From Nautilus pompilius (Eukaryota; Mollusca; Cephalopoda; Nautilida; Nautilidae): a stretch of DNA of 64,000 nucleotides. This document shows positions 38,094 through 62,633 of the stretch, in pieces. How positions within the stretch are numbered: the first letter of the stretch is position 1; every line of letters starts with the position of its first letter. Position numbers and translations under genes: made by a program. The stretch lies in the NCBI GenBank assembly GCA_018389105.1, contig JACATO010000304.1:2418001-2482000 (forward strand). Reading direction: 5' to 3'. The notes beneath the pieces were generated by a model. It worked only from the letters and a program-made list of their open reading frames with translations. It did not search any database and was not told where the DNA came from.

Positions 38094-39482
38094 CAGTTAA
38101 ACCTTGGTTATCCGAACAAGATGGGCGGGGAGTATTTTGTTCGGATAACTGATCTGATTGTAAAGAAAGGAAGCCATACTGAACATAATTACGTAAAAAA
38201 AGCATGTTTACAGAGTTTTCATTTCATTCAGTCGATAAAATGTGTACAAACACTGGATATTGCTTAGAAATTCATGATATTTTCTCAAATAAAATCATGT
38301 TATGTGTTGTTTAAATTGCGAAAATATGGAGCTGAAAATTCAAGGAAACATGATGTAATTACAAAAAAATACCTTTACATACGTGCACAGGAAGTTCACT
38401 GAGTTTGTTGAAGATGCTAAGTTCATGTAATTCATTGAGGTAAAGGTTGACTTTTTTTTTGTGAAGAAAATATCCAGTTGCTGTTGCTTGAGGTGCATCT
38501 GTTTCTTTGTTTTTGCCAGCGATAACATTTGATGAAGATGCATCAACTTAACGGCATCGTCTTCGCCTTGTGCTTCATACCACTCCATGAAAGGTTGCAA
38601 ACCGTCGAAGGCTTTGTTAATGGGGACTGGAGGAGGTGTCAGTATCTGATTTCCCTTATCATCCACTAGAGTGTCACTTTGGTTGATAAATTTCTCATTC
38701 GCCAGTCTTGCTTTCTTGATGTCGGACACTTTTGCTTTTCCAATTTTGTACTCTTGCGCAGTCTTTGATGCCTTTTCACCACGATCCAGGCGCTGTAAAA
38801 TCTCGCTTTTTTGTTCGATTGTCAGTGTTCGCTTTCTCTTCACAGACATGGTAACAGCAACAAACTCGATCACTTGTGATAGATACATACTCGGAACAAA
38901 GTCGCAGAGCAGTGCTGAGCCACCTGCTGCCCGCAGGCTTGTCACCCATGGCAGGCACTCCCTGTTGCCTCACAGGCCTCTGCGGTAACTCACAATGACA
39001 CCACCTCCCCACCCCCCCGCTCGGGGGATTTCTGTTGCTCTGCTGCCCTAATGGAAGCATGGACAATACACACTGGTGACAGGAGCTGGAACTTGAACTG
39101 TTATCGCAGAAGGACTGATGCAATCGAGCCGGCAGCTAAAAGAATCCGACCTCGACGCCTGCCGGGAGCAGGGACTTCGGCCGGATGCACACCAGCCAGC
39201 TTGGCTCTAGGCCAACTTGGGCCCCAACACTATAATAAACATATGTAGACACATTTTTTTTAATATTCATTATGTAAACAGGTAATGCAAGGTATTTAAA
39301 CCTCAATGAATGACGATGTTAAAACAAAGATTGAAAGAAATAAATCGATTTATTAAACAATAATAATTATAGCATGTTTCTAATCTTCTCGAGTTCGGAT
39401 AACACACAGTATGCTTAATTAAATATTCACAGGACCTTGAGATCTTGTTTGGATAATTGATGTTCGGATAACCGATGCACTG
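38094..39482 (-). mobile_element. Tigger/pogo-type element, internally deleted (1.39 kb)
   Basis: The termini CAGTTAAACCTTGGTTATCC and, inverted, CAGTGCATCGGTTATCC form the terminal repeat. The left flank is TA; the right is TT. It encodes a short DNA-binding protein (38,340-38,849) but no DDE domain. It lies in the right terminal repeat of the Tc1 and is the innermost layer of the nest. It keeps more CpG than its neighbours, in line with a younger age. Confidence 0.85.
38340..38849 (-). CDS. Tigger-derived DNA-binding protein lacking DDE domain
   Basis: The start is taken at the ATG of MSVKRKRTLT (38,847-38,849), giving 169 residues; the open frame runs 32 codons further upstream, probably leader. 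Residues 1-45 form a CENP-B/pogo helix-turn-helix (TIEQKSEILQRLDRGEKAS, then YKIGKAKVSDIKK). Residues from about 75 on match the C-terminal tail of Tigger transposases (NKAFDGLQPFMEWYEAQGE, then MHLHQMLSLA). The catalytic domain between them has gone, yet the two ends are in one frame. Such a protein could bind the element's ends without cutting, but expression is not shown. The last 35 or so residues look like read-through past the normal end. Confidence 0.7.
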   Translation of the reverse strand: MSVKRKRTLTIEQKSEILQRLDRGEKASKTAQEYKIGKAKVSDIKKARLANEKFINQSDTLVDDKGNQILTPPPVPINKAFDGLQPFMEWYEAQGEDDAVKLMHLHQMLSLAKTKKQMHLKQQQLDIFFTKKKSTFTSMNYMNLASSTNSVNFLCTYVKVFFCNYIMFP

Positions 39483-58000: not shown

Positions 58001-58144
58001 AAACTGGGAATTTTATACAACTACATTACTTTCTTTGGAGGTCACTGTCAGGTTAGACAGATTTAAGATCAAATATTTTTACTAATCACATAGATAAAAC
58101 TTTGTGCCAAATATCAACAAAATTGGAGACTCTCCCACCTGGTA
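55090..58144. other. AT-rich non-coding stretch
   Basis: No gene is supported. A segment at 56,410-56,580 recurs at 61,435-61,600. The region 57.3-57.75 kb has a mixed composition like old transposon coding sequence, but no family can be named. Confidence 0.5.
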
Positions 58145-58451
58145 ACACTGGTCAACAAAATTAAATGTATTATACTCATTATGAATGCAAACCAACTTTT
58201 TTAGACTAATTTTTCATGCTGATTTCAAAATTTCACTCCATTTGTATGCAGCACGATGTATCAGTTTTTCAGTATATACATGCAAATATTTACATATTTG
58301 TATATATGAAATCATTAACATAATAAATAAGGACATATTATTTTTAGAAAGTAAATGTGTTTATTGAGTTAAAAATCATCACTATCATTCTACAAAGAGT
58401 GAATACACAAAAAATTGGTCAGACAAAACAGACAAAGTTAGAACAACAGAG

Positions 58452-60113
58452 TTAGAAACATTGTGATTTGGATTTCCTGCGGTGTTCCTGATCTGGTTGA
58501 TCACGGTAAAGTGTCCACCAGTAGTCAGCCAGCATACTGTCATTCCAGAAGCCTTGGTACCGTTTCTCCATAGCGCTAATGTCCTGGTGAAATCTTTCAC
58601 CATGTTCATCAGACACTGCTCCAAGGTTATCTGCGAAGAAATCCAGATGGGAGTCCAAGAAGCGAACTTTCAGTGACATGCGACAACCCATTGCTGAGTA
58701 ACATTTCAGAAGATTCTTGATGCCATCCTTGTAATCCATTGCCTTCTTGTTGCCCAAGAAATTCTCACAGATCCAATTGAAAGCATTCCAGGCAGGCAGT
58801 TCCAGTTCATCCAGTGTTGTCTTGAAGTTGACATCTTTGAGTACTTCTCTAATTTGGGGTCCGACAAAGATACCCTCTTTCAACTTCGCCTGTGTAATTT
58901 TGGGAAACTTTTCTACAATATACTCAAACCCTCTGGCATTTCTCTTCCCTAGTGTCTTTACAAACTGTTTCATCATTCCAGGCTTTATGTGCAAAGGAGG
59001 CAATAAGACATTACATGGATCTACAAGAGGTGTATTCTTGACACTAGACAATCCTGGTTGGTATGATGTTCTTGTCTGCCAGTTTGATTCCAAATAATGT
59101 CTGTCAGTTGCCCGACTATTCCATAGACACAAGAAACAACAGTATTTTGTGAAACCTGACTGCATTTCCATTAACATTCCATTGACTTTTAAATCTCCAC
59201 ATATTTTCCATGAGTATCTTTCATAGGCAATGGTATGAAGTAAAAGTTCCATATTCTCATATGATTCGTGAAGATGAACGGAGTGTGCAATAGGAATGGA
59301 GGGCTTCAAATTACCATTATGGAGAAGTACAGCTTTTAAACTTCGTTTTGAAGAGTCAATAAACAAACGCCACTCTGCAGGATCATGATTTTGTGATAAA
59401 CATTCAAAAAATCCATTGATGTTACTGCAAAAGCAAAGCAGGCTTTCAACAGAAAAACACGTTTGTAGAACCACATTTCTCTGCCAAAAATAAGTTATAC
59501 GAACACCGTGCTCTAGCAGATATTTCTCCTTCAGTCTTGATGCCAACAGTTCTGCTTTATCTTTTGAGAGGGATAGGTCTCTGACAAGGTCATTCAGTTC
59601 AGCTTGGGAAAATTTCTGAGGTTCAAAGCTATCATCATCAACCACGTAATCTTCAGCAGCACTATCATGACAGTCAGCATCATCATCTGATGTTTCAATA
59701 CCATCATCTGGTGGAACTGGAATTGGCAGACTTCCATTGTGAGGCACAGGTCTCATTGCAGAATCCAAATTGGGATACACAATTTTGTGTTTATCCTTCA
59801 TAGAAAATCCTGTGACATTTACTTTGCAAAAATAACAGTCATTAAAATGGTCTTTCGGCTCCCTCCATATCATTGGAATGGCAAAAGGCATGGACTTCTT
59901 CCTCTTATTGAACCAGTCACGTAAGCCATTTGAGCAAGCTGAGCAGATAAAATGTGGTGCCCATAACTTGTCCTGATCTCCAAGAGGACAGTCAAAGTAT
60001 AGCTTATAAATCATCTTGATCTCTGGTGTTATTGTACGTTTTTGAGCTTTCACAATAAATTGTCCACAGACACAACAAAACGCATCAGGAGGATTTCTAC
60101 ACTGTCTTGACAT
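58452..60113 (-). CDS. Putative transposase, 553 aa, RNase H-like (unassigned family)
   Basis: The start is set at ATG 60,111-60,113 (MSRQCRNPPD) because CTTGTTTTACAG, a good splice acceptor, lies just upstream; the 34 earlier codons are then intron or leader. Residues 13-16 (CCVC) and 57-60 (CSAC) form a possible zinc site, with another CxxC at 93-96. Residues 130-165 are rich in Asp and Glu. A plausible catalytic set is D253 (LFIDSSKRSLKAVLL), D307 (ICGDLKVNG, followed by CCFLC at 325-329 and H339) and E503 or E506 (SDEHGERFHQD). Residues 371-390 (LPPLHIKPGMMKQFVKTLGK) and the tail (DYWWTLYRD, then basic KSKSQCF) are, from memory, typical of a group of uncharacterised proteins repeated in many arthropod and other invertebrate genomes. 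The frame is unbroken. The catalytic assignment is inference. Confidence 0.75.
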   Translation of the reverse strand: MSRQCRNPPDAFCCVCGQFIVKAQKRTITPEIKMIYKLYFDCPLGDQDKLWAPHFICSACSNGLRDWFNKRKKSMPFAIPMIWREPKDHFNDCYFCKVNVTGFSMKDKHKIVYPNLDSAMRPVPHNGSLPIPVPPDDGIETSDDDADCHDSAAEDYVVDDDSFEPQKFSQAELNDLVRDLSLSKDKAELLASRLKEKYLLEHGVRITYFWQRNVVLQTCFSVESLLCFCSNINGFFECLSQNHDPAEWRLFIDSSKRSLKAVLLHNGNLKPSIPIAHSVHLHESYENMELLLHTIAYERYSWKICGDLKVNGMLMEMQSGFTKYCCFLCLWNSRATDRHYLESNWQTRTSYQPGLSSVKNTPLVDPCNVLLPPLHIKPGMMKQFVKTLGKRNARGFEYIVEKFPKITQAKLKEGIFVGPQIREVLKDVNFKTTLDELELPAWNAFNWICENFLGNKKAMDYKDGIKNLLKCYSAMGCRMSLKVRFLDSHLDFFADNLGAVSDEHGERFHQDISAMEKRYQGFWNDSMLADYWWTLYRDQPDQEHRRKSKSQCF

Positions 60114-60170
60114 TGCTAACACTGTAAAACAAGTAAGGAAATAGATACAAACGGTTATACTTATATTGAA

Positions 60171-60290
60171 TTTGAGATGATGAAATATTTCATCAGACCA
60201 ATTATGACTGGACAATTTGAGATGTTGAAATACCTATTTCATCAGACAAAACTTGATTGGTTAATTTAAGATGATGAAATATTGCATCTG
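60171..60290. repeat. Three tandem units of about 46 bp with a palindromic core
   Basis: The units begin TTTGAGATGATGAAATATTT, TTTGAGATGTTGAAATACCT and TTTAAGATGATGAAATATTG (about 60,171, 60,217 and 60,264). Unit 1 contains the palindrome GATGAAATATTTCATC, and unit 2 a near copy ending ATTTCATCAGAC. They lie between the gene and the right end of the element, where transposase-binding or promoter sequences would be expected. Confidence 0.75.
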
Positions 60291-60523
60291 AACTGTGCAG
60301 CAATGAATAATGTAGTTTATTTTAACGGTATGTAAATGAAATACATGCATACAAGTCATTAATTGGAATATCTATATAATACATGAGCTAAAACCAAAAA
60401 AACTTTCTCATCTTGAAAACTGTATGTGATGTCAAAACTAATTGTATATTTGAAATCAGCATTAAAAACCACACTAAGTACACCTTGACATATGCTCGAT
60501 GAAAAATACTTGTTGACCAGTGT

Positions 60524-62633
60524 ATAATTATTCCAAAGCACAGTTTATTTTTTATGAATTTACCCAATGGCATGTCTTGTTTGGTTATCAACATAGCAAC
60601 AGTTGACAACTGTTTTATGTTCTAGTTGCATTGTAAATTTAATGGTTAGGCATATACTGTTTACATGAAATAACACCTTACTAAGATAAATTACTGAATG
60701 TGGTTGTGCTACATATCATGTTGATGTAAGGGAAAGCTGCCGAGTTCTTATTTAGCTGTTGTTTGAGACTTATAAATCTCTTGCCATTTCATTTTTTTTT
60801 TTCAAATTTTCCTTAAAGCTAGTGCTCTTCACATAATAAAGTTGTTAATGTGATTTATTATTATTCTAGATGGAAGCAGGAAGGGCATCAATTCATATTT
60901 TGTTTATATTGAGAAATGATGAGTATGCATTACTGCTTTGGTACTTTTTACCCTTACAAGTGAAGCTAGAATGCCACAAGTATAAATCCTATCTGTCGGT
61001 TGATAAGTTATTTGTGTAAAGGGTTTATTTATGAGAAAATGCAGTCTTGTGTGTATTGCTGAGCGAGGTGCTATTAAAAGTATCCAGATACTAGGCCGTT
61101 TTGAAGCTTATTGATATTCACTCATTGAAGCATAAAGTTCCTGAGTCAGAATGCAAGTGATGGTTGCTATTCAACTAAAACTTCTGTTCTACTTACAAAA
61201 CATAAGTTTAAAAGATAAAAAAAAAAAGCATAATTATGGGAGTGGCTATATTTTTAGTTTAGTTCATTTTGAGACAAAAGGACATAACATGTTTTGGCAA
61301 TTATTGAACTAATAGTATTAAATATTGTACATTCTTTTGCTTTATTTTTATGTTCTTTCAAATATTTTAAAAATACGTGGTGACCATGTAATGGAGATAT
61401 TTTGAGGCCTTTGGCTTCTCTAGTCTCTCATCTCTTACACGTGTTCCAGTCACAACAAATAACTAGCATACATCTCTTATGTGTAGAAAAGACATAGTGA
61501 CTTCACTTTGTGATTGTATGGTCAAAATGATAAGGTGTTGCCATTCTTTTGGTACAATTTTGAAGACTAAACCAAATTGCTCCTACTTTGTATAAAAAGG
61601 ACTATACACTAAGATTTCTACTTTAGACCTAAGTATTGCTAAAGATTTCTTTATTGTTCATTTAAGTGAAGTACAAACATTACTTGTTTGTAAGAAAACA
61701 ATACTTAGTTCTCTGCCTTGGACAGATAATCTCAAATCACAATATTTAAAAAATGAGCTAATATTTCTGATACATTTAATGATGGCATTTGTCATTATGT
61801 AGGAATAATTCATATTTCATGTTGTTTTTAATTTTGTTTTCTGCTCAGAGGCTCATTAAAATTGTAATTTTTAAATTGGATTCTATGGCATAGCTAGATT
61901 TTTGTTTAGATTACTTCAAATATAGAAACAAATTAGTGCTAGAGAAAACTGATAAATTCTTCAGCTGTGAAATATTAAACACTTGAATATAAATTCTTGT
62001 TATTTTAAGTAAATGAAATTGAAGTGAAGAATACAGCAGGTGTTTGAAATCCATTGATATTAAGTGACATTTGATGAAACATTTTGCATCAGTGATGCAT
62101 TACAAGTAATGCTTGATCACATATGATAATTCAGAAACAGATGTTCTTTGGAAGGGCATTTTTGGGTTAAAAAATCTAATTTTATTGATAGAAAGGATGC
62201 TTAGACATGCTTTGGTATGATGAATATGATTAATTCTTATGTTAAATTGTAGTTTTTTAAATGTCAGCCATATTTTTTTCTGTGACTTAGACTTTATTTT
62301 TGAGGGATCAAGTCTTGGCAATGTGATACTTGCCATTATATCAGTATTTGTGACAACAGATTTGAAAAAAGTTATTTACATAATTTACTTTCAAGGATTT
62401 TGCTACTGCTGCATTTGTCCATCAGAATAAAGTTTTAAATACCATTGGTAATTTTGCATAAAATCTACTTTAGCAGAATTCTCATTAATCAAGTTTCTCA
62501 AATCTATTGGGGGGGGGGACCTCATCAGCTTAGAATCTGAAATATAGTTTTTATTCACAGAATTTTGATTCTTTTTCCTTCCATGAAACGAATACTGGAT
62601 AATTTATAGAATTCCGTATGCCAACTATAACTA
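60524..62633. other. AT-rich non-coding stretch
   Basis: No gene is supported. At 61,435-61,600 it shares a segment (CCAGTCACAACAAATAACT, later TTTTGGTACAATTTTGAAGA) with 56,410-56,580. A 9-base G run lies near 62,510. Confidence 0.55.

Follow-up and report, generated by a model that had tools for sequence, protein, structure and literature searches.

Chapaev families outside Chapaev3 produce 4-bp target duplications, Mirage elements 2-bp and Transib elements 5-bp duplications, and the source study for Chapaev3 transposons is reportedly that of Kapitonov and Jurka from 2008. Chapaev3 has been placed within Chapaev, as one of its sublineages, in a CMCT clade that also takes in Transib and RAG1, and EnSpm elements are described in the same account as having CAC..GTG ends and 3-bp duplications too (PMC12730594). 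Chapaev transposons are characterized by invariable CAC..GTG termini and 3- to 4-bp duplications, and all Chapaev3 elements examined in the study concerned carry TWA duplications between A and T; most Chapaev3 elements are described there as having a single open frame, Merrow, Garfield and Conan are counted among the Chapaev3 families, and a silkworm family of 2,289 bp is reported to encode a 556-aa transposase with C(2)C, LH and H(4)H motifs (PMC4079192). An N-terminal 'Chapa' zinc finger is attributed to Chapaev3 in PMC4411706, and the residues given for mouse RAG1 are D600, D708, C727, C730, H937, H942 and E962 (PMC4914335).

The element analysed here lies in a window of 64,000 nucleotides (the whole stretch of DNA under study) and had originally been predicted to be an unassigned, poorly described DNA transposon. 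In size, in its CAC..GTG ends, in its A[TWA]T target and in the order of its C(2)C, LH and H(4)H motifs it agrees with what has been published on Chapaev3, and we therefore regard it as very probably a Chapaev3 cut-and-paste DNA transposon (Chapaev, CMC megafamily, a distant relation of Transib and RAG1), matched by published description rather than by reference sequences. The 'unassigned' label is thereby given up, the family being a new one of an already known Chapaev3 kind. The broader claim, namely that this is a DNA transposon whose transposase is of the D/D/E type and whose ends are CMC-type, is supported, and the hint at the CACTA/Mirage/Chapaev group that had been taken from the ends proved right.

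Element structure and copy number

The element occupies positions 58146-60522 of the window on the minus strand (2377 bp), its ends being set by comparison of 39 two-ended copies and by their 3-bp target duplications. The terminal inverted repeats are 13 bp long and perfect, with CACTGGTCAACAA at 58146-58158 (plus strand) and its reverse complement at 60510-60522 (minus strand). The 14-bp inverted ends of the original prediction are indeed perfect in this copy (58145-58158 and 60510-60523), but their outermost A and T are excluded because these bases belong to the 3-bp target duplication in other copies. Further inside, a 29-nt subterminal arm at 58201-58229 (plus strand) forms an imperfect inverted repeat with its partner at 60449-60477 (minus strand), the two being 83% complementary. 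The transposase gene (58452-60113, minus strand) is, as had been predicted, one unbroken open frame, running from an ATG at 60113 through 553 codons to a stop codon ending at 58452, and the AATAAA polyadenylation signal, likewise foreseen, lies beyond the stop on the same strand (58365-58360). A 29-nt unit is repeated imperfectly three times ahead of the transposase start (60169-60291), at spacings of 45 and 49 nt; these repeats are possible candidates for a regulatory or transposase-binding role. Directly upstream of the ATG lies an acceptor-like site, TTTTACAG (60114-60130, minus strand), so that an intron in the 5' UTR is possible.

The element is one of many copies of a repeat family in its genome. 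When the 728-Mb genome to which the window belongs was searched at the DNA level, there were 1203 first-look candidates, of which the 40 scored were 92-100% identical to the 2.38-kb element, and a protein search returned 8179 candidates, of which 78 were scored. Exact matches in this genome number 738 for the first 22 bp of the element and 592 for its last 21 bp together with the T that follows, as against 0 for each reversed control. For sequence comparison, 39 copies retrieved with their flanks by the DNA search were aligned with the window copy, giving 40 aligned copies; 30 loci from the protein search comprised 19 already in the set, the window itself and 10 new ones, and 14 more diverged or longer matches were added, 2 of which were already present. 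Residue counts thus refer to 62 distinct copies, window included. Among the 39 two-ended copies (one of the 40, L025, is without a left end), CAC forms the start in 36 and GTG the finish in 37, the window copy having both. Open frames of 545-565 codons starting from MSRQC were found in 11 of the 62 distinct copies, the window copy being one of them, and hence it is not the lone open gene among dead elements that it had been taken for.

A degenerate search pattern for the motif EQGERFHQD had 694 exact matches in the genome in several nucleotide versions (reversed control, 0; the first listed are C2:584592, C5:187939 and C14:936859 in G000), and several more families with transposases akin to that of the window element seem to be present in this genome. 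Elsewhere in the window, a 201-aa frame (38340-38945, minus strand) matches the CENP-B N-terminal DNA-binding domain (Pfam PF04218, E = 5.5e-07); it may represent the beginning of a gene of the pogo/Tigger or Jerky type.

Target sites, empty sites and spread of the family

Exact 3-bp duplications flank 28 of the 39 two-ended copies (14 TAA, 13 TTA and 1 TGA), with a preceding A in 27 and a following T in all 28; the aligned target duplications that had been proposed as a check are thus present, and 27 of them are TWA. The other 11 two-ended copies, window among them, have no exact duplication. At the places of the target duplication, as located by comparison of two-ended copies, the window copy has TAA on the left (58143-58145) and TAT on the right (60523-60525), with G before and A after. 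In three of the 39 copies (L008, L022 and L029) the left flank reads TTA and the right flank TAA, a mismatch of the middle base only that could stem from recombination between copies rather than from random mutation. The duplication differs at one side in L006, L009, L011, L013, L035, L038 and L039; in L006, L009 and L011 the first one or two bases of the right duplication are apparently missing, as if after trimming or a shorter stagger.

Empty sites were sought with the joined flanks of 14 copies, which gave 1057 candidates, and the 40 that were scored all showed only the flanks of copy L001. Each of the 40 crosses the junction, and the two whose sequence was inspected carry a single TTA, which confirms the 3-bp duplication for copy L001. 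These empty copies (G000 C590:176288-176468 and 39 other listed places) are 96-98% identical to the L001 flanks, copy L001 having inserted into another high-copy repeat at the site GACGATTATCGTC. For the window copy, the joined flanks matched only themselves in the genome search for an empty site.

Pairwise K2P distances among the 40 aligned copies range from 0.009 to 0.049 (median 0.030); the minimum of 0.009 is that between L010 and L019, which share a contig. Because a single copy, L038, is the nearest neighbour of 35 of the 40, the family appears star-like, as after spread in one burst. Per 1000 columns with at least 30 bases, the 40 aligned copies hold 360, 335 and 336 singletons at the first, second and third codon positions, respectively, and 360 outside the gene; given these equal rates across codon positions, the copies now decay neutrally, with no sign of selection after insertion.

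To describe the length distribution, each of the first 100 of the 738 left ends was checked for a partner at most 6 kb away among those of the 592 right ends that were listed. Among the matches listed, 48 left ends were paired, 9 of them at end-to-end distances of 2296-2397 bp and 39 at 1340-1901 bp, the short copies falling at 1340-1375 bp (15 copies), 1554-1571 bp (4), 1650-1800 bp (19) and 1901 bp (one). For the unpaired 52 of the 100 listed left ends, a changed, a lost or an unlisted right end could each be the reason. One short copy outside the paired set, whose sequence was inspected, has an internal deletion of ~0.66 kb and a TTA duplication; the candidate short derivatives L085-L087 match the element over all of the 680-683 bases retrieved and are uninformative on length. 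From these data we infer that most copies are shortened derivatives, moved in trans, which outnumber the full ones. As a tentative and rather doubtful scenario, a Chapaev3 family may have entered the host lineage once, perhaps by the horizontal route that has been reported for Chapaev3, may have multiplied in a burst from one source to several hundred copies, and may then have been overtaken by size-classed shortened derivatives; if this single invasion, burst and takeover were true, one genome would record an invasion from arrival to extinction.

Transposase motifs and the state of the window copy

The window protein has the three predicted C-x2-C pairs, at residues 13/16, 57/60 and 93/96, which as a pattern are consistent with the Chapa N-terminal zinc finger, and the predicted CCxxC after the second Asp, at residues 325-329 with D307 ahead of it. 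The original prediction also proposed a D253/D307/E503-or-E506 set. Here D307, the proposed second catalytic Asp (59193-59195; D in 60 of 62 copies), and E506, the proposed catalytic Glu within GERFH (58596-58598; E in 61 of 62), are favoured among the earlier candidates because of their RAG1-like spacing, and D253, the proposed first Asp (59355-59357; D in 58 of 62), is placed by conservation and position only; these three residues, encoded like all those below on the minus strand, make up the best candidate catalytic set. E503 and E516 were set aside for E506 on spacing only. The C(2)C motif C326-F-L-C329 (59127-59138; C326 in 60 and C329 in 61 of 62 copies) begins 19 residues after D307, the same distance as from D708 to C727 in RAG1, and is followed by an LH motif, L374-H375 (58989-58994; H375 in 58 of 62 copies, L374 read from the alignment). 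The proposed H(4)H site comprises residues 484-489 (58647-58664), with R484 in the window copy and H489 in 62 of 62 copies, and H489 precedes E506 by 17 residues, compared with 20 between H942 and E962 in RAG1. A motif built on these spacings was present in 9 of the 11 aligned open copies versus 7 of 20000 shuffles of L038, a weak test in that the motif was chosen post hoc; it is absent from the window copy and from L062, which has a deletion there.

A second H-x4-H, formed by H504 (60 of 62 copies) and H509 (58 of 62), is also present, and the choice of H484/H489 as the H(4)H site thus rests on spacing; from H504/H509 the next Glu, E516, is reached after 7 residues, versus 20 in RAG1. Where H504 would stand, the genome sites matching the EQGERFHQD pattern carry Q, as the pattern itself demands; all that these matches tell on H504 is that Q at this place looks common in apparently related genes.

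A Pfam search of the transposase copies gave no family at gathering score; the rows below threshold were zf-AD, for 4 of the 11 members (best E = 0.053), and Barstar, YolD and HAD_2, each for a single one of the 11. A PDB search returned only two chance-level rows (FtsA, E = 1.2-1.3), relatives of the transposase were absent from viral contigs, plasmids and prokaryote genomes, and a literature search with three peptide motifs found no paper. A single-sequence structure model of the window protein had a mean pLDDT of 35 and was unusable for fold assignment.

According to the mechanism that we propose, a transposase of ~554 aa, its N-terminal Cys pairs probably binding zinc, would recognise the CACTGGTCAACAA ends and perhaps the subterminal repeats as well. 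Its putative RNase H-like core, with D253, D307 and E506 as catalytic residues and C326/C329 with H484/H489 as zinc site, would excise the element and join it to an A-TWA-T target with a stagger of 3 bp, and repair of the staggered target would double the TWA.

At position 484, H is found in 59 of the 62 distinct copies, 2 have gaps and the window copy alone has R. The claim that the window copy is intact stands as far as its open gene and perfect ends are concerned, but is made doubtful by this private H-to-R difference and by the lack of an exact duplication. If H484-x4-H489 is the H(4)H motif, R484 removes a probable zinc ligand, and the window copy, its gene open, would probably be inactive. 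It might instead still be a working element, if the protein tolerates R484 or if the H(4)H site is in truth H504-x4-H509, in keeping with its open frame and perfect ends and with the conservation of H504 and H509. We consider this unlikely: R484 is private to the window copy, its flanks form no exact target duplication, its mean K2P to the other copies (0.033) is above that of 27 of the 39 others, the copies show neutral decay, and the gap from H509 to E516 is far from that in RAG1. Probable inactivity of the window copy is thus the reading that we retain.

Placement among described families

As EnSpm shares both the CAC..GTG ends and the 3-bp duplication, these two features do not separate it from Chapaev3, and the finer assignment depends mainly on the target site. 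The element could belong elsewhere in the CMC clade, to EnSpm/CACTA, Mirage, Transib or a branch still to be described, its A[TWA]T target being then a coincidence; across this clade, ends are mostly 5'-CA..TG-3' and duplications measure 2 to 5 bp, and the Chapaev3 placement is by published description. Against this, TWA between A and T, a length of ~2.3 kb and a protein of ~555 aa jointly match reported Chapaev3, and we give such a chance resemblance little credence. A domesticated host gene of transposase origin is scarcely credible, because the unbroken frame at the window locus, which would fit it, is outweighed by the high copy number, which refutes this reading for the family, and by the inverted ends, the singleton rates, which in the 40 aligned copies do not differ between codon positions, and the private difference of the window copy in a conserved site.

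The Chapaev3 assignment removes a candidate 'new superfamily' on target-site, end and motif evidence for a named group, shows that a gene without any Pfam match is placeable from its insertion sites, and brings to Chapaev3 a further family, marked by a clear burst and by numerous shortened derivatives, together with a prediction on the zinc site that is open to test.

Compared with Chapaev3 as described, the element is alike in its CAC..GTG ends, TWA between A and T, length of ~2.3 kb, single open frame, ~555-aa transposase with C(2)C, LH and H(4)H, and nonautonomous derivatives; it is unlike in that R replaces the first His of the proposed H(4)H site in the window copy and in that the paired short derivatives here span 1.34-1.90 kb, whereas MITEs are described in PMC4079192. 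Other Chapaev, Mirage and EnSpm/CACTA elements, according to the published accounts, resemble it in their CAC..GTG-type ends, in the 3-bp duplications of EnSpm and in having both C(2)C and H(3-4)H in the stretch from the second Asp to the Glu, but the TWA between A and T is reported in those accounts for Chapaev3. With Transib and RAG1 the element shares the residue order D, D, C(2)C, H, H(4)H, E, whereas the two Asp residues are 108 apart in RAG1 (D600-D708) and 54 apart here (D253-D307), and the target duplication is 3 bp here as against the 5 bp of Transib.
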